Shown here: one piece after another, positions 2,497 through 22,466 of the stretch
Position numbering within the stretch: the stretch's first letter is position 1
How the letters are laid out: each line of letters opens with the position of its first letter
From: a virus
Direction: 5' to 3' (one strand)
IMG/VR virus record: IMGVR_UViG_3300003937_000301
Span: 1 to 26,527 of that record
DNA length: 26,527 nucleotides
Translations under genes and position numbers: made by a program
The notes under the pieces: model-generated
Seen by the model: the letters and a program-made list of their open reading frames with translations, nothing else
Databases searched by the model: none
What the model was told of the DNA's origin: nothing

Positions 2497-5400
2497 ATGA
2501 ATAATAGAGCAGTCGTTTGGGCATCCAATAGACGAGTACAAATGGCAAAAAAACATAGTGAATTAACAGGAGCAGACCTTCATGATCCAAAAGGTATTGA
2601 TGCTTTAAATACTTCAACCGCTTTAGTAATGAGTCAATCGGCTCAGACTATATCAATTAGTGGTTCTACTTTACCAAATGCAGATGATACCTATGATTTA
2701 GGAGCATCAGGAACTCAATGGAAAGATTTATACATAGATGGTACTGCCAATATAGATAGTTTAACCTTGACTTCAGGGGCAACTGTAACTGCAGTTCTCG
2801 ATGAAGATGCAATGGGTTCAGATAGTGCAACAGCACTTGCGACCCAACAAAGTATTAAAGCTTATGTAGCAGCTCAAATAACCGCAGAAGATTTAGATGT
2901 CAGTTCAGATAGTGGTACAATTGCAATTGATTTAAATAGTGAGACATTTACTATCGCAGGTGGTACAGGTATAACAACTTCAGCAACAAGTAATACACTT
3001 ACAATTGCAAGTGCAGTTACAGCAGGTGATGGTTTAACTTTAACTTCCGCAGATATAGATATAGATGCGGCACAAACAACAATTACAAGTATTTATAATT
3101 CAAGTCTTGCTATAGGATATGGTTCATCACACGCAAATATAGATTTCGGTACAGATAATGCAATTATATTTGACATTGATGGTACACAACAACTTAAATT
3201 AACAGATGGAGTACTTGCTCCAATTACAGATAATGACATTGACTTGGGAACATCTACATTAGAATTTAAAGATGCTTTCTTTGATGGTACGGTTACTTCA
3301 GATGCGTTCGCAGGGCCATTGACAGGTGCTGTAACTGGTAATGCCGATACAGCAACTAAAATTTCATCTATCACGAATAGTAATATTGTACAATTAACAG
3401 ATTCACAAACATTAACAAATAAAGTATTAACAAGTCCTGATATTAATACACCAGATATTGATGGTGGTACAGTAGATGCAATTACTTCATTAACTGTAGC
3501 AAATAATGTTGATATAGGTGCTTATGATTTAAGAGCAGCTACAATTACACCTGATGGATTAACAAGTGGAAGAGTTGTTTTTGCAGGAACAAATGGAGTA
3601 TTAAGTGATGACTCTGATTTAACATTTAGTGGAGCTACACTAACTGCAACAAGTGCATCATTTAGTTATGTAACTGCAAGTGTAGTTGAGGTTGATGCCA
3701 CTACTTTAACAATTGGTGGGGTAGAACTTAATTCAACAATTGCAACAAATATTCAAAACACAAGTGGTACAAATACTGGTGACCAAGATTTATGGGATGT
3801 AGTTGCAGGTGATAGTGGAACTACAACTTCAAATTCTGCAACTGATACACTTACAATTGCTGGTGGAACAGGAATTACTACGGCAGTAAGTGGTGATACA
3901 CTTACAGTTACAAGTGCAATTACAGCAGGAGATGGTTTAACTTTAAACACCGCGGATATTGATATAGATGCAGCACAAACTACTATTACTTCATTATTAG
4001 CAACAGATATAAAAATTGGTGAAGATGACCAAACGAAAATAGATTTTGAAACAGCGGATGAAATACATTTCTATGCAAATAATACTGAACAAGTTTATGT
4101 AGGTGATAATATATTAGGGCCACAATCAGATAGTGATGTAGACTTGGGTTCTACAGGAGTTCGTTGGAAAGACGCTTATGTTGATAGTATAACTGTAACA
4201 GGTGAAGTGGATGGTGCGTCATTAGATATAGAAGGTGATGCAGATATTAATGGTACACTTGAGGCAGATGCAATTACTGTTAATGGTACTGCTTTAAATA
4301 CTGTTATAGCAGGAGTTACCGTATCAAATGCAACATTAGCAGCAACTACAACCGTTACGGATAGTACTGCAAATACAAATTTCCCAATTGTTCTACACAA
4401 TGAATCGAATGCTTTATTAGACGATACAGGAACATTTACTTATAATCCAAGTACTTCAACATTAGTAGTACCTAATATAAATGTTTCAGGTACACAAACT
4501 TTTGTAAATACTGCATCTCTTGTGGTAACGAGCTCAATTGTTTTTGAGGGAGCTACAGATGATGGACATGAAACAACTTTAACCGTTGTAGACCCAACTA
4601 ATGATAGAACATGGACTTTACCGAATGCGACAGATACCGTAGTTGGAAAGGCAACGACAGATACTTTAACAAACAAAACTTTAACAAGTCCTGTCTTAGT
4701 AACACCAGCATTAGGTACACCAGCAAGTGGTGTGATGACAAATGTAACAGGAACAGCAGCAGGTTTGACAGTTGGTGCTACTACAGGAGTTGAAGCAGGT
4801 GCAGATGTAACCGATACAGCAAATGTAACTGCAGCAGGTGCGTTAATGGATAGTGAATGTACTGACTTAGCGGCAGTAAAGGCCACCGAAGACCCATTTA
4901 CAGCGGCTCTCTTGTCAAAATTAAATGCTATCGAGGCAAGTGCAGATGTAACCGATACAGCAAATGTAACAAGTGCAGGTGCGTTAATGGATAGTGAATT
5001 AGCGTCTATTGGTTCTGTTAAAGCATTAGACCAATCAGTTGTTAGTGGAGCAACACCTACATTTACAACTACTAATTTTACAGATGCATCAAACAAAAGA
5101 TTAATGACAGATGCTCAAGAAACTAAATTAGATAGTGTTGAATCAAGTGCCGATGTAACAGATACAACAAATGTAACAAGTGCAGGTGCTTTAATGGATT
5201 CGGAAGTAACAAATCTCGCATTTGTAAAAGCCTTAGCTAAAGGTATTTCAGATGGAAATGTTTTAACGGCTAATGATGTAGTAGCAGATAATGATTTTCT
5301 TAGAATCAATGGAACAGAAGTAGAAGGTTTAACCGTAGCTGAAGTCCTATCTGCATTAAGTGTAGAATCAGGAGCTACAGCAGACCAAAGTAATGCAGAG

Positions 5401-6159
5401 ATAGTTGCAGCAGTTGAAGCAGGTTCTGACTCAAACACTTTTACAGATGCAGACCATTCTAAATTAAATGCTATTGAAGCTTCAGCAACAGCCGACCAAT
5501 CAAATGCAGAGATAGTTGCAGCAGTTGAAGCAGGTTCTGACTCAAACACTTTTACAGATGCAGACCATTCTAAATTAAATGCTATTGAAGCGTCAGCTAC
5601 CGCAGACCAAACAATTACTTCTGGAACTGGTATGACAGGTGGTGGAAGTGGAGATATTACTCTTAATGTAGTTGGTGGAACTGGTGTTACAGCAAATGCA
5701 AATGATATAGCAATTGGACAGGCAGTAGGAACTGGTGATGATGTAACATTCGGAACAGTTCGTGTAGATGACGCAACAACTTCAACAAGTAAAACAACAG
5801 GAGCACTTATAGTTGATGGTGGTCTTGGTGTAAATGAAAATATTCACGCTGGTGGTGATGTTGTAGCATTTGCCTCATCAGATAAGAGATTAAAAGATAA
5901 TCTAATATCAATTTCTAATCCATTAGATAAATTAGAAAAAATTGGTGGGTATGAATTTGATTGGAATGATAAACAAGCTATTCATACTGGACATGATGTT
6001 GGTGTTGTTGCACAAGAAATACAAGAAGTATTACCTGAAGTCGTTGAAGAAAGAGAAAGTGGATATCTTGCAGTTAAATATGAAAAAATTGTACCATTAT
6101 TGATAGAAGCAATAAAAGAATTAAAACAAGAAATTGATGAATTAAAGAAAAAAAATTAA
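2497..6159 (+). CDS. Large tail fibre protein with C-terminal peptidase S74 chaperone domain
   Basis: The gene encodes 1220 residues. GGAG eight bases upstream supports this ATG over the in-frame ATG at 2542. The N-terminus (about residues 1-35, including KKHSELTGADLHDPKGI) is likely the virion-attachment part. The shaft is modular: (Y/I/V)DLG...(W/F)KDxxxD modules near residues 59-85, 243-266 and 544-568; a roughly 120-residue module present twice; three ADVTDTxNVTxAGALMDSE repeats; and a 37-residue tandem duplication near 966-1032. At the C-terminus, Ser1128 in SDKRLKDN, Lys1133, HDVGVVAQEIQEVLPEVV and a final helix match the S74 intramolecular chaperone. In that family the domain trimerises the fibre and then cuts itself off before the Ser, which here would release about 93 residues. 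It is the likely host-recognition fibre. Confidence 0.88.
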   Translation: MNNRAVVWASNRRVQMAKKHSELTGADLHDPKGIDALNTSTALVMSQSAQTISISGSTLPNADDTYDLGASGTQWKDLYIDGTANIDSLTLTSGATVTAVLDEDAMGSDSATALATQQSIKAYVAAQITAEDLDVSSDSGTIAIDLNSETFTIAGGTGITTSATSNTLTIASAVTAGDGLTLTSADIDIDAAQTTITSIYNSSLAIGYGSSHANIDFGTDNAIIFDIDGTQQLKLTDGVLAPITDNDIDLGTSTLEFKDAFFDGTVTSDAFAGPLTGAVTGNADTATKISSITNSNIVQLTDSQTLTNKVLTSPDINTPDIDGGTVDAITSLTVANNVDIGAYDLRAATITPDGLTSGRVVFAGTNGVLSDDSDLTFSGATLTATSASFSYVTASVVEVDATTLTIGGVELNSTIATNIQNTSGTNTGDQDLWDVVAGDSGTTTSNSATDTLTIAGGTGITTAVSGDTLTVTSAITAGDGLTLNTADIDIDAAQTTITSLLATDIKIGEDDQTKIDFETADEIHFYANNTEQVYVGDNILGPQSDSDVDLGSTGVRWKDAYVDSITVTGEVDGASLDIEGDADINGTLEADAITVNGTALNTVIAGVTVSNATLAATTTVTDSTANTNFPIVLHNESNALLDDTGTFTYNPSTSTLVVPNINVSGTQTFVNTASLVVTSSIVFEGATDDGHETTLTVVDPTNDRTWTLPNATDTVVGKATTDTLTNKTLTSPVLVTPALGTPASGVMTNVTGTAAGLTVGATTGVEAGADVTDTANVTAAGALMDSECTDLAAVKATEDPFTAALLSKLNAIEASADVTDTANVTSAGALMDSELASIGSVKALDQSVVSGATPTFTTTNFTDASNKRLMTDAQETKLDSVESSADVTDTTNVTSAGALMDSEVTNLAFVKALAKGISDGNVLTANDVVADNDFLRINGTEVEGLTVAEVLSALSVESGATADQSNAEIVAAVEAGSDSNTFTDADHSKLNAIEASATADQSNAEIVAAVEAGSDSNTFTDADHSKLNAIEASATADQTITSGTGMTGGGSGDITLNVVGGTGVTANANDIAIGQAVGTGDDVTFGTVRVDDATTSTSKTTGALIVDGGLGVNENIHAGGDVVAFASSDKRLKDNLISISNPLDKLEKIGGYEFDWNDKQAIHTGHDVGVVAQEIQEVLPEVVEERESGYLAVKYEKIVPLLIEAIKELKQEIDELKKKN
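2938..4206 (+). repeat. Duplicated ~120-residue fibre module, copies about 903 bp apart
   Basis: Module 1 (about 2938-3303) and module 2 (about 3841-4206) share, in order, TIAGGTGITT, S-A-(V/I)-TAGDGLTL, ADIDIDAAQTTITS, a variable stretch, and D(I/V)DLG...KDA. The offset is 903 bp at the TAGDGLTL part and 900 bp at the DLG part, so a single codon has been gained or lost. The copies have diverged at DNA level, which indicates an old duplication. Confidence 0.7.
4801..5205 (+). repeat. Three dispersed 57-bp ADVTDTxNVTxAGALMDSE repeats
   Basis: Copies lie at 4801-4857, 4942-4998 and 5149-5205 within the large fibre gene. Copies 1 and 2 are nearly identical in DNA, with a 141-bp offset. Copy 3 is more diverged. 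Two copies are preceded by KL(N/D)xxE(A/S)SADV, linking them to the tandem repeat further downstream. Confidence 0.75.
5392..5591 (+). repeat. Tandem repeat, 111-bp period, with identical 89-bp core
   Basis: Bases 5392-5480 and 5503-5591 appear identical by direct reading, with a 111-bp (37-codon) offset that keeps the frame. The encoded unit contains NAEIVAAVEAGSDSN and TFTDADHSKLNAIEASATADQ. The identity suggests a recent duplication or gene conversion in the fibre shaft. Confidence 0.9.
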
Positions 6160-9256: not shown

Positions 9257-9299
9257 ATCGAAGAAAAATTAACGGCAAATAATTAAAATGGAGAACAAA

Positions 9300-9791
9300 A
9301 TGGCCGACATATTAGCAGCAGACGAAATCTTTTTTACACCGTTTGAACCGAAAACGAAAAATCGTTTCGTCATGTATATTGACGGAATACCTTCTTATTT
9401 TGTAAAGACAATGAATCGACCACAAATTACCTTTGAAGAAGTTGAACTTAATCATATCAATATTAAAAGATATATTAAAGGTAAAGGTACATGGGAGCCT
9501 TTAGAAATAACTCTATATGATCCAATCGTTCCAAGTGGAGCACAGGCAGTTATGGAGTGGGTAAGATTACACCACGAATCAGTAACAGGTCGTGATGGAT
9601 ATTCAGATTTTTATAAGAAAGAGATTAAATTTAATCTTTTAGGTCCAGTAGGTGATAAAGTTGAGGAGTGGGTATTGAAAGGTGCTTTCATACAAACCGC
9701 TAACTTCAATGACTTAGATTTTGCTAATGGAGCAGATGTCGCTGATATATCGTTAACACTTCGTTACGACTACGCAGTACTTTCGTTCTAA
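9300..9791 (+). CDS. 19: Tail tube protein (T4 gp19-like)
   Basis: The tube monomer builds the inner channel for DNA under the sheath. I chose ATG 9300 over the in-frame ATG 9288: GGAGA at 9291-9295 is well placed for 9300, and nothing similar precedes 9288. The product is then 163 residues, the same length as T4 gp19. Supporting sequence: NRFVMYIDGIPSYFVKTMNR near residues 21-40, PLEITLYDPIVPSGAQAVMEW near 68-88, and a C-terminal GAFIQTANFNDLDFANGADV followed by a LTLRYDYAVLSF strand. Its position after the sheath and before the assembly chaperone is the standard tail order. Confidence 0.92.
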   Translation: MADILAADEIFFTPFEPKTKNRFVMYIDGIPSYFVKTMNRPQITFEEVELNHINIKRYIKGKGTWEPLEITLYDPIVPSGAQAVMEWVRLHHESVTGRDGYSDFYKKEIKFNLLGPVGDKVEEWVLKGAFIQTANFNDLDFANGADVADISLTLRYDYAVLSF

Positions 9792-9809: not shown

Positions 9810-10040
9810 ATGGCCTTTAAAGATATTTTTAAAGATGATAACTCATATAACGAGAAATCTATTATAGGGTTTGGTGCGTTTGCAGTGATGGTAATATTTG
9901 CAACTGCAGATATTGTAACAGGTGCTATTGGTAAGGATTTAGTAATTAACGAAGTTGTTTATAATTCTTTTCTATTAACTACATTAGGTAGTTTCGGTAT
10001 AGCAGGAGCTGAAAAGATTTTTTCACAACAAAAAAAATAA
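9810..10040 (+). CDS. Small membrane protein with two predicted helices
   Basis: This encodes 76 residues with AAGGA before the ATG, 18 bases after the tube gene. A charged N-terminus (MAFKDIFKDDNSYNEK) precedes a hydrophobic segment at about residues 18-41 (IIGFGAFAVMVIFATADIVT). A second, weaker one lies at about 50-69 (YNSFLLTTLGSFGIAGAEKI), before a Lys-rich end. The size and two-helix layout would fit a holin-like or minor tail or membrane protein, but no family signature was recognised and no lysin lies beside it. An AT-rich gap containing TATAAATA follows. Confidence 0.65.
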   Translation: MAFKDIFKDDNSYNEKSIIGFGAFAVMVIFATADIVTGAIGKDLVINEVVYNSFLLTTLGSFGIAGAEKIFSQQKK

Positions 10041-10114: not shown

Positions 10115-10894
10115 ATGGCTGAAAATCAGTACGATTTTCCGACCGAAGTTCTGGCTCTACCTTCAAAAGGTTCACTCTATCCAGAGGATAGTCCACTTCA
10201 TTCAGGAACAATCGATGTCAAATATATGACAGCAAGAGAAGAAGATATATTAACTTCAACAAACTTAATTGAAAAGGGAGTAGTAATAGATAAACTTTTA
10301 GAAAGTGTTATCGCAGACCCTAAAGTTAGTATAGATGACTTACTAATTGGTGATAAAAATGCACTAATGGTAGGCACAAGAGTATTGGGATATGGTAAAG
10401 ACTATACAGTAGTGATAGAAGATCCAGATACGGGATTAGAAGTAGAACATACTTTTAATTTAACAGAGTTAAAGAATAAGGAAATAGATGAAAAAGTTTT
10501 TAATAGTGCAAAAGAAAACAAATTTTCATTTACTTTACCTAACACTAAGAAGAAACTTGAATTTAAATTACTCACACATAAAGACGAGAAAGAAATTGAT
10601 AAAGAAGTTAAAGCATATGATAAGTTATCAAAGGTAACTGGAGTATCAAATGAATTAACAACTCGTCTAAAAAAACAAATTATTTCGGTTGATGGTGAAA
10701 CTGAACGAAAAACTATTAATAATTTTGTTGATAATCAGTTCTTATCATTAGACACAAAAGCATTTCGTAAAAAATATAATTCAGTATCACCTGATATAAA
10801 TTTTGATTGTGAATACGAAAGTCAAATAGGAGAACTCCATACGGTAAATATACCAATAGGAGTACGATTTTTTTGGCCTGAGTCCGAATTATAA
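10115..10894 (+). CDS. 26: gp26-like tail assembly chaperone / baseplate hub protein, short form
   Basis: This encodes 259 residues; AGGAG precedes the ATG. The sequence LALPSKGSLYPEDSPLHSG, then KYMTAREEDILTSTNLIEKG, VIDKLLESVI and DDLLIGDKNALMVGTRVLGYG (within about residues 13-91) is the conserved core of the T4 gp26 baseplate family. T4 gp26 has 208 residues. A Lys/Glu-rich helical middle leads to IPIGVRFFWPESEL at the end. The gene lies between the tail tube and the tape measure, exactly where long-tailed phages keep tail assembly chaperones. These usually come in a short form and a frameshifted long form. Codons 252-253 are the UUU UUU of a seven-T run, and the short form ends seven codons later. 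The product probably coats or helps fold the tape measure during tail assembly and is not necessarily in the virion. Confidence 0.88.
   Translation: MAENQYDFPTEVLALPSKGSLYPEDSPLHSGTIDVKYMTAREEDILTSTNLIEKGVVIDKLLESVIADPKVSIDDLLIGDKNALMVGTRVLGYGKDYTVVIEDPDTGLEVEHTFNLTELKNKEIDEKVFNSAKENKFSFTLPNTKKKLEFKLLTHKDEKEIDKEVKAYDKLSKVTGVSNELTTRLKKQIISVDGETERKTINNFVDNQFLSLDTKAFRKKYNSVSPDINFDCEYESQIGELHTVNIPIGVRFFWPESEL
10858..10874 (+). promoter_or_regulatory. Probable programmed frameshift site (AGGAG ... T7)
   Basis: AGGAG at 10858-10862 is followed after five bases (TACGA) by TTTTTTT at 10868-10874. In the gp26 frame this reads CGA UUU UUU UGG. A P-site UUU tRNA can re-pair perfectly on the overlapping UUU one base downstream, entering the frame that begins GGC at 10875. 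A Shine-Dalgarno-like sequence a few bases before the slip codon stimulates +1 shifting in bacterial prfB (RF2). A -2 slip on the same run would reach the same frame with one extra Phe. Confidence 0.6.
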
Positions 10895-11078
10895 AAAAGA
10901 ACTTCACGAAGAAATTTACAATATAATTTATCATGGAAAGGGATTCACCTTTTCCGAAATTTACACTATGCCAGTATATTTAAGGAGATTTTATCTTAAA
11001 TTGTTAATTGATACTCGGCAAAAAGAAAACGCAGAAATAGAAAAACAACAACCTAAGCAAAGATTTCAAAAATCTTAA
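10875..11078 (+). CDS. C-terminal extension of the tail assembly chaperone (long form, by frameshift)
   Basis: This frame is open from 10860 to the stop at 11076-11078, but it has no ATG, GTG or TTG until the ATG at 10968, which would leave only 36 residues. Translated from 10875 it begins GLSPNYKKELHEEIYNIIYH, then GKGFTFSEIYTMPVYLRRFY, then LKLLIDTRQKENAEIEKQQ. The FTxxEIYxMPVxxRRFYxxKL-type segment followed by a charged helix is typical of the second part of phage tail assembly chaperones and gp51-like proteins. Its conserved part lies upstream of any usable start, which implies fusion to the preceding gene. A +1 shift gives 253 + 67 = 320 residues. The tape measure gene follows after one small gene. 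Separate initiation at a rare codon (CTG 10878) is the alternative. Confidence 0.75.
   Translation, partial: GLSPNYKKELHEEIYNIIYHGKGFTFSEIYTMPVYLRRFYLKLLIDTRQKENAEIEKQQPKQRFQKS
11060..11076 (+). other. AT-rich hairpin at the end of the chaperone extension
   Basis: AAGATTT (11060-11066) and AAATCTT (11070-11076) pair perfectly around CAA, overlapping the stop codon. The GATATTTATT motif follows seven bases later. This repeats the hairpin-then-motif layout seen at 6158-6187. Confidence 0.35.
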
Positions 11079-11122: not shown

Positions 11123-11335
11123 ATGAAAATTAAAGAATCACAACTAAGAAAATTACACGAAGCAGGTTTGTTAGAGGGTTTCTTTGCACGCCTGAAGAGA
11201 GATATTCAAAAACTTAGTGATAAGAAAATTCAATCAATTATAGATAAAGGGAATGAAGAGGTTGCAGATTTCATAAAGGATTTTAAAAAGAATCCAAATA
11301 AATATATGAAGTATGATAGAGAATTAGGATTTTAA
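11123..11335 (+). CDS. Small charged protein of unknown function
   Basis: This encodes 70 residues with AGGGA before the ATG. The N-terminus MKIKESQLRKLHEAGLLEG is an amphipathic helix ending in LHE-A and LLE-G. These resemble both the MKITESQLRR-type starts common in marine T4-like phage proteins and the (L/I)xE cleavage motif of T4 prohead protease. The rest is a basic and acidic helical protein (KKIQSIIDKGNEEVADFIKD). It lies between the assembly chaperone and the tape measure and has its own promoter-like motif. Function unknown; the cleavage idea is inference. Confidence 0.6.
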   Translation: MKIKESQLRKLHEAGLLEGFFARLKRDIQKLSDKKIQSIIDKGNEEVADFIKDFKKNPNKYMKYDRELGF

Positions 11336-11361: not shown

Positions 11362-13500
11362 ATGGCCGACTCAGATAGAGCACTCGAAAATGCTGAACAA
11401 ATTATCAAGCTTACGGAAGAACAAGCAGCTCAGCAAGAAAAAATCAAAGGATTATTAAAAGGTATTGATGGGTTAAATAAGACACAAAGAGCTGAACGAG
11501 AGAAAGATATTAAATCAGCAAAGCTTATTTTAACAATTAAGAAGAAAGAACTAAAAATTACACAAGGACTTTCAGATGTCCAAGATGAACTTCGTGATCT
11601 TACCGATAAAGAATCTGCATTAGCTTTCGATATGGTAGCACATAAAAAGAAAATTTTAAAAGCAGCTGCTGAAGTTAGAAAGTTAGAAAAGATTGGTACT
11701 GTTGAGGCTAAAGAAAAAGTAAAAGAACTTAAAAAACAAACAAAGTTTACTAAACAACTTTATGATAAAAATAAAGATATGGTTGCAAAAGTTCAAGTAC
11801 AACATCAACTTACTGACAAATTACTTGGTACTATAGGATCAAGTGTTTCGGGCATGAAAGGTATGGTTGCACAGGCTGAGTTATTTTCAATGGCATTATT
11901 AAAAAATCCATTTGTTTTAATGTTGGCTGCATTAGTAGCAGTTGTTAAAATGCTTAGTATGGGAGTTAAACAAGCTTTTGATTTCCAAGACGAATTGGGA
12001 ACTTCCGCTAATCAATCTATACAGTTGGCTTCAAAGTTAACTTTGGTTAATTCATCACTTTCAGTATTGGGAATCGATGGTACAAAAATTGCAGGAGAAT
12101 TAGCAAATAATTTGGGTGGAATAGGTGCCGTTACAAAAGAAAATGTAAATTATTTTGGTTTGATGTCAAAATCACTTGGTGTCTCTTCAGAAACAGGTAT
12201 TCAAGTTTTTAAAGCAATGGAATCAATTTCGTCAGCTGGTGAAGCGGGTGCAAAAGCAACCTTAGAATTTACAGCTGCGTTAGCAGAATCAAATAATGTC
12301 GCTCCTGGAGCCATTATGAATGATATTGCAGCAAATACAGAAATGTTTGCTGAGTTTGGTTTAGATGGTGGAAAAAATATAGCTAAGGCTGCAGTTCAGG
12401 CAAGAAAGTTAGGATTAAATTTAGCAACTACAGCTAAAATAGCCAATTCCCTATTAGACTTTGAATCTTCCATAGAGAAAGAAATGGAAGCCTCAATGTT
12501 AATTGGTAAACAATTAAATTATAATAAGGCAAGAGCATTAGCACTTGAGGGTGATTTAGCAGGAGCAGCCGCAGATGTAGTAAAACAAATTGGTGGTAAG
12601 GCAGAATTAGAAAAGATGAATGTTCTTCAAAGAAGAGCATTGGCAGATTCAATTGGAGTTTCAGTAGATGAATTGAGTAAGTTGGCAGGTGGAAAAATGG
12701 AAGTAAAAGATGCCGACAAAGATATTAAAAAACAACAAGCGAATATGACCAAAAATTTAAATAAAGGGATTGAGGGCCTACAAAAAGTAATGAGTTTTTT
12801 AATAAAGGCAACCCTTGGCCTTACGGCCGTAACTCTTCTTCTTACTGCAGCGCGGAGCATGGGTATGCTTAAAGGTTTTGGAAAAGGTGGAATGCTGAAA
12901 TCTATGAAAAGTGGTGGTACTAAGTTAATGGGTAAGGCTGCTTTAGGAGTTGCAGGTAAAAAAGCATTAACCAAAAAAGGTGGTGGTGCTATAATGAAAT
13001 CAACTGGTAAAAAAGTTTATGGTGCGGCAGCCAAAGCAGCGGTTACAAAAGGAACTGCAAAAATAGCAGGTAAGACTTTAGCGAAAAGTGCTTTAAAGAA
13101 AATACCTGGTGTAGGACTTATAGCTGGACTTGGATTTGGACTCAGTAGATTGATGAAAGGTGATTTGGCAGGTGCAGTAGGAGAAATTGCAAGTGGAGCT
13201 GCTTCAATAATTCCTGGACTTGGAACGGCAGCATCTCTCGCAATAGATGCAGGATTAGCTGCAAGAGATATAAGTAAGGCGAATAAAGATAGTGCAGAAG
13301 TTATAGGAGAACAATCAACCGCAATAGAACAAAAAGTATCTGCAGAAGAACCAGATACAATGAAAAAAATGGCAGAACATCAAGTAACGGATTCAGAGAC
13401 AACAAAGGTGTATCAAGAGAAATCTCTGATAATGTTACAACAAATTATAGAAGCAAACAACCAAACAGGTACTAAAGTAGAGGGATTAACTAAGGAATAA
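11362..13500 (+). CDS. Tape measure protein
   Basis: This encodes 712 residues; AGGA precedes the ATG. Residues about 1-160 are a Lys/Glu-rich coiled coil. A hydrophobic segment follows at about 176-200 (ALLKNPFVLMLAALVAVVKM). A long Ala/Gly/Ser-rich helical region leads to a second hydrophobic segment at about 478-495 (LIKATLGLTAVTLLLTAA), a Lys/Gly/Ala-rich stretch, and a third hydrophobic region at about 583-640 (IPGVGLIAGLGFGLSR and nearby). This pattern of long helices with inner hydrophobic segments, placed between the assembly chaperone and the baseplate genes, identifies the tape measure that sets tail length (T4 gp29 role; gp29 has 590 residues). It is probably injected and may form the membrane pore. 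No peptidoglycan hydrolase domain was noticed. Confidence 0.85.
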   Translation: MADSDRALENAEQIIKLTEEQAAQQEKIKGLLKGIDGLNKTQRAEREKDIKSAKLILTIKKKELKITQGLSDVQDELRDLTDKESALAFDMVAHKKKILKAAAEVRKLEKIGTVEAKEKVKELKKQTKFTKQLYDKNKDMVAKVQVQHQLTDKLLGTIGSSVSGMKGMVAQAELFSMALLKNPFVLMLAALVAVVKMLSMGVKQAFDFQDELGTSANQSIQLASKLTLVNSSLSVLGIDGTKIAGELANNLGGIGAVTKENVNYFGLMSKSLGVSSETGIQVFKAMESISSAGEAGAKATLEFTAALAESNNVAPGAIMNDIAANTEMFAEFGLDGGKNIAKAAVQARKLGLNLATTAKIANSLLDFESSIEKEMEASMLIGKQLNYNKARALALEGDLAGAAADVVKQIGGKAELEKMNVLQRRALADSIGVSVDELSKLAGGKMEVKDADKDIKKQQANMTKNLNKGIEGLQKVMSFLIKATLGLTAVTLLLTAARSMGMLKGFGKGGMLKSMKSGGTKLMGKAALGVAGKKALTKKGGGAIMKSTGKKVYGAAAKAAVTKGTAKIAGKTLAKSALKKIPGVGLIAGLGFGLSRLMKGDLAGAVGEIASGAASIIPGLGTAASLAIDAGLAARDISKANKDSAEVIGEQSTAIEQKVSAEEPDTMKKMAEHQVTDSETTKVYQEKSLIMLQQIIEANNQTGTKVEGLTKE

Positions 13501-18831: not shown

Positions 18832-19287
18832 ATGGTTATATGGTTCACAGGTCAGCCAGGTTCTGGTAAAACTACATTAGCAACAGAATTTTACAATAGA
18901 TTAATTTCTTATACATCTGAAGCAGTTGTGCATTTAGATGGAGATGATTTAAGAGATGTATTGGATAATAAAGATTACTCAGAAAAAGGTCGTAGAAAGA
19001 ATATCCAATTTGCAATAAATATGACGAGAGTTTTAGATGATAAAGGTTTTATAGTTATTGTATCTATGGTATCACCATACAGAGATCAACGAGAAAAATT
19101 AAAATCGAATAGAAATATTGCAGAGTTTTATCTTCACACAACGGAGATACGAGGTAAGGAAGATTATTTCGTAGACGGTTATGAACCACCACTTCACAAT
19201 TTTACAGATATAAATACAGACAAAACAATAGAGGAGAGTGTAGATGAAATATTCGATGTTTATCGGCAGATGGCAACCTTGGCATAA
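18832..19287 (+). CDS. cysC: Adenylylsulfate (APS) kinase-like P-loop kinase
   Basis: This encodes 151 residues. APS kinase phosphorylates APS to PAPS, the sulfate donor. Seen here: the Walker A GQPGSGKTT (7-15), HLDGDDLR (34-41), YSEKGRRKNI (49-58), VIVSMVSPYRDQRE (75-88) and DGYEPPLHNFTDIN (115-128). All are in CysC order, though the protein is shorter than the usual 170-200 residues. The lid that normally reads like GEIKxFTGIDxPYExP is shortened and altered, so another substrate is possible. AAAGG precedes the ATG. The end overlaps the next gene by 44 bases. No ATP sulfurylase or sulfotransferase is visible in the window. Confidence 0.8.
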   Translation: MVIWFTGQPGSGKTTLATEFYNRLISYTSEAVVHLDGDDLRDVLDNKDYSEKGRRKNIQFAINMTRVLDDKGFIVIVSMVSPYRDQREKLKSNRNIAEFYLHTTEIRGKEDYFVDGYEPPLHNFTDINTDKTIEESVDEIFDVYRQMATLA

Positions 19288-19630
19288 AGGACATCAATGG
19301 TTAATAGAACAACGATTGAAAGAGGGTAAGAATGTTTTGATTTGTATTCGAGATATGATGCCAGATAAAAACAATCCATTCACTTCTGAAGAAGTATTTG
19401 ATATGTTATCAAGAGAGTTATCAGATTATATTAGAGTTGAACAAGTTAAACTTATGATAATACCTGATATAGAATCTGTAAATTATGGTAGAGGAGTGGG
19501 ATATGATGTTATAGAACACACACCACCTACAGAAATTGGTGAGATATCAGCAACAAAAATTCGTGAAAAATATAAAAAAGAAAGAAGTGATGAATTAATA
19601 GAAATGATTAAATTAAAAGGAAGTGCATAG
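19244..19630 (+). CDS. HxGH nucleotidyltransferase (adenylyl/cytidylyltransferase fold)
   Basis: This encodes 128 residues. GAGGAGAG lies just upstream of the ATG, inside the kinase gene. FIGRWQPWHKGHQWLI (6-21) holds the HxGH nucleotide-binding motif. NPFT (44-47) and EISATKIREKY (100-110), an ISxTxIR signature, complete the family pattern. The motifs fit NMN adenylyltransferases of the archaeal/NadR type as well as small cytidylyltransferases such as TagD (129 residues). The family joins NMP to a phosphorylated substrate and releases pyrophosphate. The substrate here is unknown; the overlapping kinase may supply it, either for a nucleotide-activated metabolite or for NAD salvage. The stop overlaps the next start (TAGTG). 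Confidence 0.75.
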   Translation: MKYSMFIGRWQPWHKGHQWLIEQRLKEGKNVLICIRDMMPDKNNPFTSEEVFDMLSRELSDYIRVEQVKLMIIPDIESVNYGRGVGYDVIEHTPPTEIGEISATKIREKYKKERSDELIEMIKLKGSA

Positions 19631-20325
19631 TGAAAATTGATGTATTGGATAAAGGTTATATTGAATTAATAGATACACTTGGAGATGATTTAACTCCAGT
19701 AAATGCAGCTCGTGTATCATTTGGTAGTCGTAGTAAAGAATTTACAGACAAAGATAAGAAATTATCAAAGTTTTTAATCAAACACAAACACTTCTCACCA
19801 TTTAGACATCAACATATTCAAGTTATTATTAAAGCACCTGAATTTGTAATGAGACAATGGTATAAGCATGTAGTTGGTATAGAAACCACATCAAACCATC
19901 CAACGAAAGACCATGCATGGAATGAGATAAGTGGAAGATATGTTCCTTATGATGAGTTCTATCAACCAACAGAGTTTCGTAAACAATCGGATGATAATAA
20001 ACAAGCAAGTGATGGTTTGGTAGATAAACAAGCGTATGCAAAAAGAACTTGGGAAATTGGTCAACGAGAAGCTATATCAGCATATGAAGATTTATTAGAG
20101 ATGGGTGTTGCAAGAGAACAGGCAAGAAGTATTTTACCATTGACGGTTTATACAAAGGTGTGGTGGACTGCATCATTTCAAAGTGTGATGAACTTCATAG
20201 AATTGAGAGATGAACCAACAGCTCAAGTAGAGATACAAGAATATGCGAAAGCATTAAAGAAAATAATGTTAGAAGTATTTCCAGAAACAACTAAATTGTG
20301 GAGTGAGGAATATTTGAATGAATAA
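19630..20325 (+). CDS. thyX: Flavin-dependent thymidylate synthase ThyX
   Basis: This encodes 231 residues from a GTG start with AAAGGAAG upstream. ThyX makes dTMP from dUMP using FAD and methylene-tetrahydrofolate. Seen: TPVNAARVSFG (22-32), LIKHKHFSPFRHQH (49-62), MRQWYKH (74-80), WNEISGRYV (97-105), and AREQARSILPLTVYTKVWWT near 153-172. The classical RHRxxSxNExSxR signature is split: K79-H80-V81 stands for RHR, and about 13 extra residues precede N98-E99-I-S101. The rest of the enzyme looks complete. Its likely job is thymidylate supply for AT-rich phage DNA synthesis. It overlaps NagB by eight bases. Confidence 0.92.
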   Translation: MKIDVLDKGYIELIDTLGDDLTPVNAARVSFGSRSKEFTDKDKKLSKFLIKHKHFSPFRHQHIQVIIKAPEFVMRQWYKHVVGIETTSNHPTKDHAWNEISGRYVPYDEFYQPTEFRKQSDDNKQASDGLVDKQAYAKRTWEIGQREAISAYEDLLEMGVAREQARSILPLTVYTKVWWTASFQSVMNFIELRDEPTAQVEIQEYAKALKKIMLEVFPETTKLWSEEYLNE

Positions 20326-20983
20326 AATTAAAGAGTTAAGTAGTTATTTGGAATTAGGTAGTCATGTAGCAGATATAGTTGAACATACATTAACATTACC
20401 AGAACCTAAATTAATATTACCTACAGGTTCAACACCACTTAGTTTATATAAAGAACTTGTAAGTAGACAATTAGATTGGAGTACCACAACTACATATAAT
20501 TTAGATGAATATGTTGATAATACAATTCAGGACCAAAGTTATAGATATTTTATGATGGAAAATTTATTTAAACATATTAATATGAATGATGATAATATAT
20601 ATTTTCCAGGTGATACTGCAGTGTGGCCAGATTTGAGTTATGGAACTGAAGTTGATTTATGTTTATTGGGTATTGGTGGTAATGGACATATAGCTTTTAA
20701 TGAACCTGGTTCTTCATTTGATTCAGAAACAAGAATGGTAGATTTAAACGAAGAAACAATTAAAGATAATTCAAGATTTTTTCCAACTATAGATGAAGTA
20801 CCAACACAAGCAGTTACTATGGGATTGAAACCAATTATGAGTTCAAAGAAAATAGTATTAATGGCAAATGGAAAACATAAAAAAGATATTTTAGAACAAG
20901 CGATGTATGGTAATATTACTGAAGATATACCAGCATCCATTTTACAAAACCATAAAAATGTAAAGGTATATTATAGTGATTAA
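20318..20983 (+). CDS. nagB: Glucosamine-6-phosphate deaminase-like protein (NagB family)
   Basis: This encodes 221 residues with GAGG before the ATG. NagB interconverts glucosamine-6-phosphate and fructose-6-phosphate plus ammonia. Seen: ILPTGSTPLSLYKEL (33-47), YNLDEYV (60-66) followed by DQSYRYFM (72-79), LGIGGNGHIAFNEPGSSF (117-134), AVTMGLKPIM (165-174), MANGKHKKD (182-190) and IPASILQNH (204-212). By alignment of these motifs, D63, H124 and E129 match E. coli Asp72, His143 and Glu148. Asp141 is replaced by N122, as in other NGH-type members. It is shorter than E. coli NagB (266), mainly before the GNGH motif. It is rare cargo for a phage; the neighbouring PIG-L gene hints at amino-sugar metabolism. 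Confidence 0.88.
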   Translation: MNKIKELSSYLELGSHVADIVEHTLTLPEPKLILPTGSTPLSLYKELVSRQLDWSTTTTYNLDEYVDNTIQDQSYRYFMMENLFKHINMNDDNIYFPGDTAVWPDLSYGTEVDLCLLGIGGNGHIAFNEPGSSFDSETRMVDLNEETIKDNSRFFPTIDEVPTQAVTMGLKPIMSSKKIVLMANGKHKKDILEQAMYGNITEDIPASILQNHKNVKVYYSD

Positions 20984-21071
20984 TTGGAAAGAGTTATTAC
21001 CTAAACCAAGTAGTATAGTTGTTTGGATGATATGTTTACTAATGTATTTAATTATAAACAAATGTATTTAA
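20976..21071 (+). CDS. Possible 31-residue single-span membrane peptide
   Basis: A GTG-started frame overlaps the nagB stop by eight bases, the same overlap as thyX/nagB, and stops one base before the next ATG. AAAGG lies about nine bases upstream. The product is a charged N-terminus (INWKELLPKPSS) followed by VVWMICLLMYLIINK, a plausible membrane helix. It fills the only gap in an otherwise contiguous gene set. With such a short frame, chance cannot be excluded. Confidence 0.4.
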   Translation: MINWKELLPKPSSIVVWMICLLMYLIINKCI

Positions 21072-21072
21072 T

Positions 21073-21579
21073 ATGATTGATAAGATAATGATTGTAGCAC
21101 ACCCTGATGACGAAGCACTATTCGGTGGAGCTGAATTATTAACACATTCAGACGAATATAAAGTTGTAGTAGTGGATGAATGTCATAATGAAGTTAGAAA
21201 AAAAGAACTTATAGCCTCTATGAAGTTTATAGGGATAAAAGAATTTGAACATTGGACAGGGTATAAAGGTGGGGAAGATTATCATAGAGAAAAACTTATC
21301 TATGAATTGTTAAGAGTATTGAGAGAAAGAAAATATAAAAAAATAGTAACACATAATAAACAAGGTGAATATGGTCATCCAAGACATAGAGCATTACACG
21401 ATATATTAAATCATTTAAGACCAGAGTTGTTATGGTGTTTTGATAAAAATCATGATGTTAGATTACCTAATGATTTATTAATGAAGAAAAGAGATTTATT
21501 AAAAGTGTATGGAAGTCAAACCGATGTATTAAATTGGTTTAGTCCCTGGTACGAAAAAATAACAAAGGTTAATAAATGA
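21073..21579 (+). CDS. PIG-L/LmbE-family deacetylase
   Basis: This encodes 168 residues. The family removes N-acetyl groups, classically from N-acetylglucosamine units (GlcNAc-PI, mycothiol and bacillithiol precursors), using zinc. Seen: MIVAHPDDEALFGGAE (6-21), containing the AHPDDE motif with likely zinc ligands H10 and D13 and catalytic base D12, and GEYGHPRHRALH (98-109), supplying the third metal His. It is shorter than most members (about 220-300 residues), although the core motifs are intact. No strong ribosome binding site is seen; an in-frame ATG at 21088 is an alternative but would cut into the first strand. It overlaps the ATP-grasp gene by ATGA, so the two products are probably made together. 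Confidence 0.85.
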   Translation: MIDKIMIVAHPDDEALFGGAELLTHSDEYKVVVVDECHNEVRKKELIASMKFIGIKEFEHWTGYKGGEDYHREKLIYELLRVLRERKYKKIVTHNKQGEYGHPRHRALHDILNHLRPELLWCFDKNHDVRLPNDLLMKKRDLLKVYGSQTDVLNWFSPWYEKITKVNK

Positions 21580-22466
21580 ACGGTTGGATATTATATAAAA
21601 ATCCTATAGAAGAGTCTTGGGAAACTCAAAAACTTATAGAAGAATTTGAGAAACAAGAAATTAAGGTTCGAGTAGTGCACCCAGACGCTGTAGATATTTT
21701 TGTAGATAGAGATGATAGGAAAAGTATTTTGGTTGATGGTAAGGCGAGAACACTTCCAGATTTTGTAATACCACGAACAGGTAGTGGAACAACTTACTTT
21801 ATTAAAGCAATTATTCGACATTTAGAGCGGTTGGGAGTGATACTTATTAATGGTAGTGATTCGATAGATAATGTTAAAGATAAGTTATACACACAACAAG
21901 TATTAGGACAATCAAATCTACCAGTACCAAAAACACTATTGGTTAAACACCCAATTAATGTAGAATTTGTAGAAAAGAACATAGGATATCCTGCAATTAT
22001 AAAAACTCTTAGTGGTTCTTTTGGAGCAGGTGTATTTCTGTGTGAGAATAGAAACCAATTACAACAATTATTGAAAATGGCAGAGATAACGAAACCAAGT
22101 TACAATATTATCATTCAAGAATTTATTAAAGATTCTCATGGTAAAGATTTGAGAGTGCTTGTTGTCAATGGTAAAGTTGTTGGTTGTATGATGAGACAAT
22201 CAGTAGATGGTGATTTCAGAGCTAATATCACAAGAGGTGGTGAAGGTATTCCATATCAAATTGATGCAGATATAGAATGGTTGGGTGGTGAATCTGCAAG
22301 ATTACTTGGTTTGGATATAGCAGGAGTGGACTTGTTATTTGATGGGGAATCGTATAGTATATGTGAGGTTAACTCTTCACCAGGATTTGAAGGAATGGAT
22401 AAATATTGTAAAACAAATATTGCAGAACAAATAGTTACTTATGTTAAACATAAGATAGGTCAATGA
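21576..22466 (+). CDS. RimK-like ATP-grasp ligase
   Basis: This encodes 296 residues, close to E. coli RimK (300). These enzymes join a carboxylate to an amine through an acyl phosphate, for example adding glutamate to a protein C-terminus. Seen: YPAIIKTLSGSFGAGVFLCE (138-157) as the ATP-binding Lys and glycine loop, IIQEFIKDSHGKDLRVLVVN (179-198), MMRQSVDGDFRANITRGGEG (205-224) and ICEVNSSPGFEGM (262-274) with the metal-binding Glu and Asn. AAAGG precedes the ATG. Linked by ATGA overlaps on both sides to the PIG-L and polymerase genes. Possible roles are glutamylation of a host or phage protein, or amide ligation to the amine exposed by the deacetylase. The substrate is unknown. Confidence 0.88.
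   Translation: MNGWILYKNPIEESWETQKLIEEFEKQEIKVRVVHPDAVDIFVDRDDRKSILVDGKARTLPDFVIPRTGSGTTYFIKAIIRHLERLGVILINGSDSIDNVKDKLYTQQVLGQSNLPVPKTLLVKHPINVEFVEKNIGYPAIIKTLSGSFGAGVFLCENRNQLQQLLKMAEITKPSYNIIIQEFIKDSHGKDLRVLVVNGKVVGCMMRQSVDGDFRANITRGGEGIPYQIDADIEWLGGESARLLGLDIAGVDLLFDGESYSICEVNSSPGFEGMDKYCKTNIAEQIVTYVKHKIGQ

Follow-up and report, generated by a model that had tools for sequence, protein, structure and literature searches.

Does the gp26-like gene of this phage encode one protein, ending at its in-frame stop codon, or also a longer one, made when ribosomes change frame shortly before that stop? The DNA analyzed here (the window; 26,527 nt or 26.5 kb, positions 1 to 26,527 of the IMG/VR virus record IMGVR_UViG_3300003937_000301) carries a contractile-tail module, in which a sheath gene was identified by a match to Phage_sheath_1 (1e-13). 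On the plus strand, a tail tube gene is located at 9288..9791 (phrog_4542 tail tube, 3.7e-29), the gp26-like open reading frame (ORF) of 259 aa at 10115..10894, and a tape measure gene at 11362..13500, the latter recognized by its similarity to the protein annotated as tape measure in Flavobacterium phage immuto (27% identity, 477 aligned columns, E 1e-14). The gp26-like gene lies between the tube and tape measure genes, which is the place expected for a gp26/gp51-type pair and the one proposed in the initial annotation. Two small ORFs at 9810-10040 and 11123-11335, without a convincing family match, flank it. Elsewhere the window encodes a 1220-aa fibre-like protein with repeated segments and a Peptidase_S74 chaperone domain at its end (2497-6159), and a metabolic run (18832-22466) of APS kinase-like, cytidylyltransferase-like, ThyX, glucosamine-6-phosphate isomerase-like, PIG-L deacetylase and RimK ATP-grasp proteins, which may form a module for modifying small molecules, sugars or peptides.

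The 3' end of the gp26-like ORF reads ATA CCA ATA GGA GTA CGA TTT TTT TGG CCT GAG TCC GAA TTA TAA, and the 0-frame stop follows only a few codons downstream of TTT TTT TGG CC. The overlapping +1 frame is preceded by a TAG at 10857-10859, is open from 10860 to 11078 with its stop codon at 11076-11078, and reads FFGLSPNYKKELHEEIYNIIYHGKGFTFSEIYTMPVYLRRFYLKLLIDTRQKENAEIEKQQPKQRFQKS across the site; judged from base composition, the chance of a 60-codon open frame is about 0.5%. The earliest ATG in this frame, at 10968, already falls midway through the conserved part, and before that position the frame contains no ATG, GTG or TTG and a single CTG at 10878. Upstream of the site, the Shine-Dalgarno-like AGGAG at 10858..10862, 5 nt ahead of the first TTT, is followed by TACGA and then by seven T's at 10868-10874; TTT TTT T occurs in frame nowhere else in the ORFs of the window. 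The putative frameshift site, TTTTTTTGGCC at 10868..10878 (0-frame TTT TTT TGG CC.), is invariant in 32/32 aligned close relatives. The +1-frame extension, a candidate TAC-C domain of 68 codons plus stop at 10872..11078, is supported by the frame relation, by dN/dS and by phrog_634, and joining 10115-10870 to 10872-11075 gives a predicted long form (TAC-NC) of 320 aa, composed of 252 + 68 residues. The initial annotation had described this arrangement correctly: the stop at 10894, the overlapping frame to 11078 without a usable start, the AGGAG, five-base spacer and seven T's ahead of the overlap, and a long form of about 320 residues. The best explanation, to which we assign a probability of about 0.88, is that a programmed +1 frameshift yields the short (259 aa) and the long (320 aa) version of a T4 gp26/gp51-type tail assembly chaperone; the family assignment of both parts, the lack of starts, the frame relation, the purifying selection and the conservation of the site can be read from the sequence, from which we infer the shifting by ribosomes, its frequency, the Phe codon in the P site and the chaperone function.

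The conservation of the overlap was compared among relatives. A tblastn search with the short form matched 12 phage records, and in all those inspected (immuto, Microcystis phage Mel-JY01, LR756508, SP-15, GXN1, RM378 and LIS04) a +1 extension was located behind the stop, in the same place. Two IMG/VR scans with duplicates removed, together with the phage records immuto, Mel-JY01 and LR756508, gave 118 distinct homologous loci with an identifiable site, about 37-100% identical, and the extension was in the +1 frame in all of them. A seven-T site, TTTTTTT(GG/AC/AT)CC, was present in 108 of the 118, while TTTCTTTGGCC was found in nine and TTTCTATTCCC in one. When split more finely, the sites were TTTTTTTGGCC(T/A/C) in 79 loci, TTTTTTTACCCT in 27, TTTTTTTATCCT in 2, TTTCTTTGGCCT in 9 and TTTCTATTCCCT in 1. 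The T-run is interrupted as TTTCTTT in nine loci, immuto among them, and as TTTCTAT in one (L004). Hence, a conserved frame overlap coincides with a conserved shift-prone site, as in programmed +1 frameshifting, while a -1 shift on a tandem slippery heptamer would place the extension in the -1 frame, contrary to what was observed at all 118 loci. Further afield, 22 loci were looked at in a scan starting from SP-15, one of which (L190) ends at a contig edge; in the distant SP-15-like loci that read past the stop (about 20) the extension was again in +1, mostly with the sites TTY TTT CGT/CAT CCN or TTA TTT AAT CCC. Genome assemblies provided nine more loci with a +1 extension, several of them in Bacteroidota bins and one with TTT TTT TTC CCT. 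The lone exception was L157 (around 3240-3300), which has TTC TTC TGG and an extension in the -1 frame; its overlap contains a short insertion of about 7 extra bases, and neither the T-run nor the frame relation is retained, which could reflect an error, decay or a different mechanism. As a separate observation, contig JABHXC010000041.1 (L218), placed in a Woesearchaeota MAG, carries a gp26-like gene whose product is 100% identical to that of the window; it is a phage sequence inside a genome bin and no evidence of an archaeal host.

The conserved frame relation is the decisive evidence that the overlap is real. Homopolymers are generally error-prone; no result points to a sequencing or assembly error in the T-run here, and such an error has a negligible probability, because the relation is common to 118 distinct loci from many metagenomes and to the isolate genomes of immuto and Mel-JY01, and because the non-homopolymer variants show it as well. 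Neither a chance overlap nor a sequencing error is compatible with this conservation, and both were rejected. One unbroken frame, which the initial annotation had named as a sign of such an error, was found in 0/118 loci.

The identity of the two protein parts was examined with family profiles. The N-terminal part belongs to the gp26/gp51 family, as indicated by its matches to PF12322 (T4_baseplate, 1.7e-9, above the cutoff) and phrog_150 (7.8e-12). PF12322 and phrog_150 are matched by both T4 proteins, gp26 (208 aa) and gp51 (249 aa), but only the gp51 match extends over the C-terminal part of phrog_150, and only gp51 matches phrog_634; T4 therefore has the short and the long version as two genes. 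The extension matched phrog_634, the baseplate hub assembly catalyst, with an E-value of 0.013. In hhalign runs, where E-values apply to single comparisons, the fused window-type profile matched the cyanophage gp26+gp51 fusion (E 7e-11), the extension profile alone matched the cyanophage gp51 tail (E 2.9e-5), the cyanophage fusion profile matched the gp51 family (E 1.2e-18), and the direct match of the fused profile to T4 gp51 was weak (E 0.13). Through these profile comparisons the C-terminal domain is homologous to the gp51-specific tail, and, the direct gp51 comparison being weak, the connection with T4 is made through PF12322 and the cyanophage bridge. The proposal of a gp26-like body fused to a gp51-like tail is upheld by these data, while the notion of gp51 as a mere tail is not, because gp51 is a full-length gp26 paralogue that carries the tail. 

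The short form and the extension were modelled as separate chains. The AlphaFold2 model of the short form was confident, with a pLDDT of 88, and so was that of the extension, a three-helix domain with a pLDDT of 87. When the short form was compared with 434 solved chains using VIA-align, the top match was the HK97 tail assembly chaperone 2ob9, with a weak Z of 4.3 (next 2.4) and an alignment of 95/104 residues, a faint signal in line with the family matches; Foldseek gave an E of 5. A sequence search of solved structures returned nothing relevant; for the extension alone, the best matches to PDB structures (Z 2-2.7) were uninformative, and no viral structure model matched with E <= 0.001.

The selection tests were based on 54 close relatives. 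The dN/dS of the extension (0.275) was similar to that of the gene body (0.253), and in ungapped pairs of equal length pN/pS was 0.45 in the proposed frame, versus 0.97 and 1.38 in the other two, which indicates that the extension is under purifying selection in the close clade. Among 110 conserved degenerate codon columns, the only three without synonymous variation were those of the shift-site residues F, F and G. The glycine codon GGC is used 1.3 times per 1000 codons in the genome, compared with 42.9 for GGT, and is nevertheless invariant at this position. A lack of synonymous-site constraint at the overlap, which the initial annotation had listed as an argument against a frameshift, is thus not what was found. 

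These results also bear on the view, taken by the annotators of Mel-JY01 and of the cyanophages, that the extension forms a small gene by itself, which would be translated by reinitiation or from a start codon of its own. In-frame starts close to the overlap do occur in some relatives, and TAATG overlaps are found in distant KVP40-like and Ackermann-type phages; on the other hand, the window and 58/118 loci contain no ATG, GTG or TTG before the conserved part (up to extension codon 12), the codons of the shift site are frozen, and T4 gp51 is the fused form. A separate gene is therefore highly improbable, and separate genes with normal starts, which the initial annotation had considered as a counter-argument, are not a feature of the group, such separate genes with starts that can be used being confined to more distant phages. 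The annotations of immuto (L002, 6851-6961) and Mel-JY01 (L003, 5740-5976) give the extension as a hypothetical protein that is either truncated or has a start of its own.

In the proposed mechanism, most ribosomes would stay in the 0-frame up to the stop at 10894 and produce the short TAC-N, while a fraction would pause within TTT TTT TGG CC, where the P-site tRNA-Phe could move one base forward, from UUU to UUU or UUC. The shifted ribosomes would then read GGC CTG AGT... to 11078 and make the 320-aa TAC-NC with its C-terminal helical domain. By analogy to lambda gpG/gpGT, the tape measure protein may be covered by numerous short and few long copies, and tail tube subunits may be recruited by the C-terminal domain. 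The occurrence of TGG, TAC or CGT after the second TTT suggests that the second Phe codon would be in the P site, while CTA in L004 suggests the first. TTT CTT TGG and TTT CTA TTC still let the tRNA move one base forward, from UUU to UUC, with cognate pairing, and TTC TTT CGT allows a cognate +1 move at its second codon. 

The same variants help to distinguish the +1 shift from a -2 shift at the T-run, which would give a product one residue longer (FFFG versus FFG). A -2 shift is known from phage Mu. Where the site has seven T's, as in the window, UUU can pair just as well after a move of two bases upstream, so that the sequence of these sites cannot separate the two. However, TTT CTT TGG (nine loci, including immuto), TTT CTA TTC (L004) and TTC TTT CGT (SP-15-like) would require mismatched re-pairing for -2, while they keep cognate +1 pairing at one of the two codons. 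Because +1 re-pairing is good at the variant sites and -2 re-pairing is poor, the +1 shift is clearly preferred and a -2 shift appears unlikely; of the "+1 (or -2)" given in the initial annotation, the first option is the better supported one. Slippage of RNA polymerase on the seven T's, by which some of a mixed population of mRNAs would carry the long-form frame, is less probable still. T homopolymers can cause it, and seven T's are present in 108/118 loci, but the loci with TTTCTTT and TTTCTAT retain the frame relation without a homopolymer, and slippage does not need the TGG/TAC CC after the run, which is nearly invariant. The core of the initial annotation, a chaperone C-terminus hidden behind a +1 shift at the T-run, is strongly supported by the relatives. 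The published predictor PRFect accepts a +1 site only if the A-site codon of the +1 frame is more frequent than that of the 0-frame (PMC10885494), and since GGC is rarer than TGG in the codon counts of the window, this program would probably miss the site.

Candidate stimulators of the putative shift were less well conserved than the site. A strong Shine-Dalgarno-like sequence was found upstream of it in 20/118 loci and none in 38/118. From this comparison, AGGAG is not a conserved element, although it may be a local enhancer in the window. The initial annotation had proposed to see whether relatives share the T-run, the frame relation and the AGGAG; the first two were retained (108/118 and 118/118) and the third was not, so that the prfB-like Shine-Dalgarno part of the site is not upheld. 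RNAalifold applied to 32 close relatives showed essentially no conserved stimulatory RNA structure, and the 66 nt downstream of the site in the window folded no better than shuffled sequences (z 0.17). In the L063-L087 subclade only, a GC-rich hairpin, GCCGCC...GGCGGC, directly follows the GGCC of the site, with a compensatory change over two pairs in L082; this hairpin is a possible stimulator for that subclade only. The pattern-breaking locus L157, the missing clade-wide RNA structure, the lack of a universal Shine-Dalgarno sequence and the weak direct match to T4 gp51 were all counted against the proposed explanation.

The site resembles several known systems and differs from each. In prfB, a +1 shift occurs at CUU UGA with a Shine-Dalgarno sequence. 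The site described here would share with it the forward P-site slip, and the immuto-type CTT TGG resembles CUU UGA; in contrast to prfB, it has a sense codon, TGG or TAC, in the A site, a spacing of 5-8 nt, no conserved upstream Shine-Dalgarno sequence at short spacing, and it is not autoregulatory. Lambda gpG/gpGT is alike in that one gene adjoining the tape measure gene gives a short and a long chaperone by frameshifting, but the shift is -1 (PMC5009743), and the likeness is one of description, with a weak fold resemblance of the short form to the HK97 chaperone. The tail chaperone of the haloarchaeal myovirus HSTV-2, which is reported as a very likely +1 case (PMC5009743) and belongs to an unrelated phage group, is likewise comparable by description.

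The G/GT frameshift was described as widely conserved in long-tailed phages "except T4" (PMC5009743), and this exception was settled by Vladimirov, Gautam and Davidson (2022), judging from the title as cited in PMC10885494 and PMC12846349; the two citing papers refer to -1 signals of the poly-T type and to short and long forms encoded by separate genes. The unification of gp26 and gp51, which the initial annotation had foreseen as a useful outcome, therefore holds but was already published in 2022, as far as that cited title indicates. The locus is like the T4-like TAC-N/TAC-NC pair in family (PF12322, phrog_150/phrog_634), in its two-length logic and in the place of the junction at the C-terminal FF; it differs in having one gene with a predicted shift, while T4 has two paralogous genes, 26 and 51. 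Poly-T -1 sites are reported for other T4-like groups, as cited in PMC12846349, as opposed to the +1 at TTT YTT T(GG/AC) CC proposed here. In cyanophage and KVP40-like gp26-gp51, the N-terminal part and the extension are homologous to those of the window and the shift is located at the same Phe-Phe, but the site is the -1 tandem slippery heptamer T_TTT_TTC, and the product is annotated as two genes. The short genes of S-SSM7, S-RIM8 and PC-Liy1 end in ..T TTT TTC.., with the gp51 extension in -1 directly behind. The annotated gp51 of S-SSM7 (L091, 3178-3384), S-RIM8 (L092, 3169-3369) and the KVP40-like Vibrio phage PC-Liy1 (L093, 3262-3441) is this -1 extension of gp26, and the annotated gp51 starts look mechanical.

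No report of a +1 T4-like chaperone was found in the literature searched, in which the 2022 paper figured by title and citations. With the caution that this paper is represented by its citations, the frameshifted chaperone is of a kind already published, while the +1 direction and the site are a new variant. More broadly, it stands at about even odds that a large gp26-type branch, from phages of Flavobacterium, Microcystis and Rhodothermus through Bacillus SP-15, relies on a so far undescribed class of +1 sites (TTT YTT T(GG/AC) CC, having sense codons and lacking a Shine-Dalgarno sequence), and that within the wider family the shift at these Phe-Phe codons has changed direction between +1 and -1, the fused product remaining unchanged. 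With the putative +1 shift, one protein pair would be made in at least three ways, by a +1 shift, a -1 shift or duplicated genes. Most of the sites studied in this field are -1; the one described here would add a deeply conserved forward frameshift, whose natural variants allow testing what makes a sense-codon +1 site work. The annotation of isolate and metagenomic phages would be corrected as well, where this C-terminal domain has been missed or called a separate gene.
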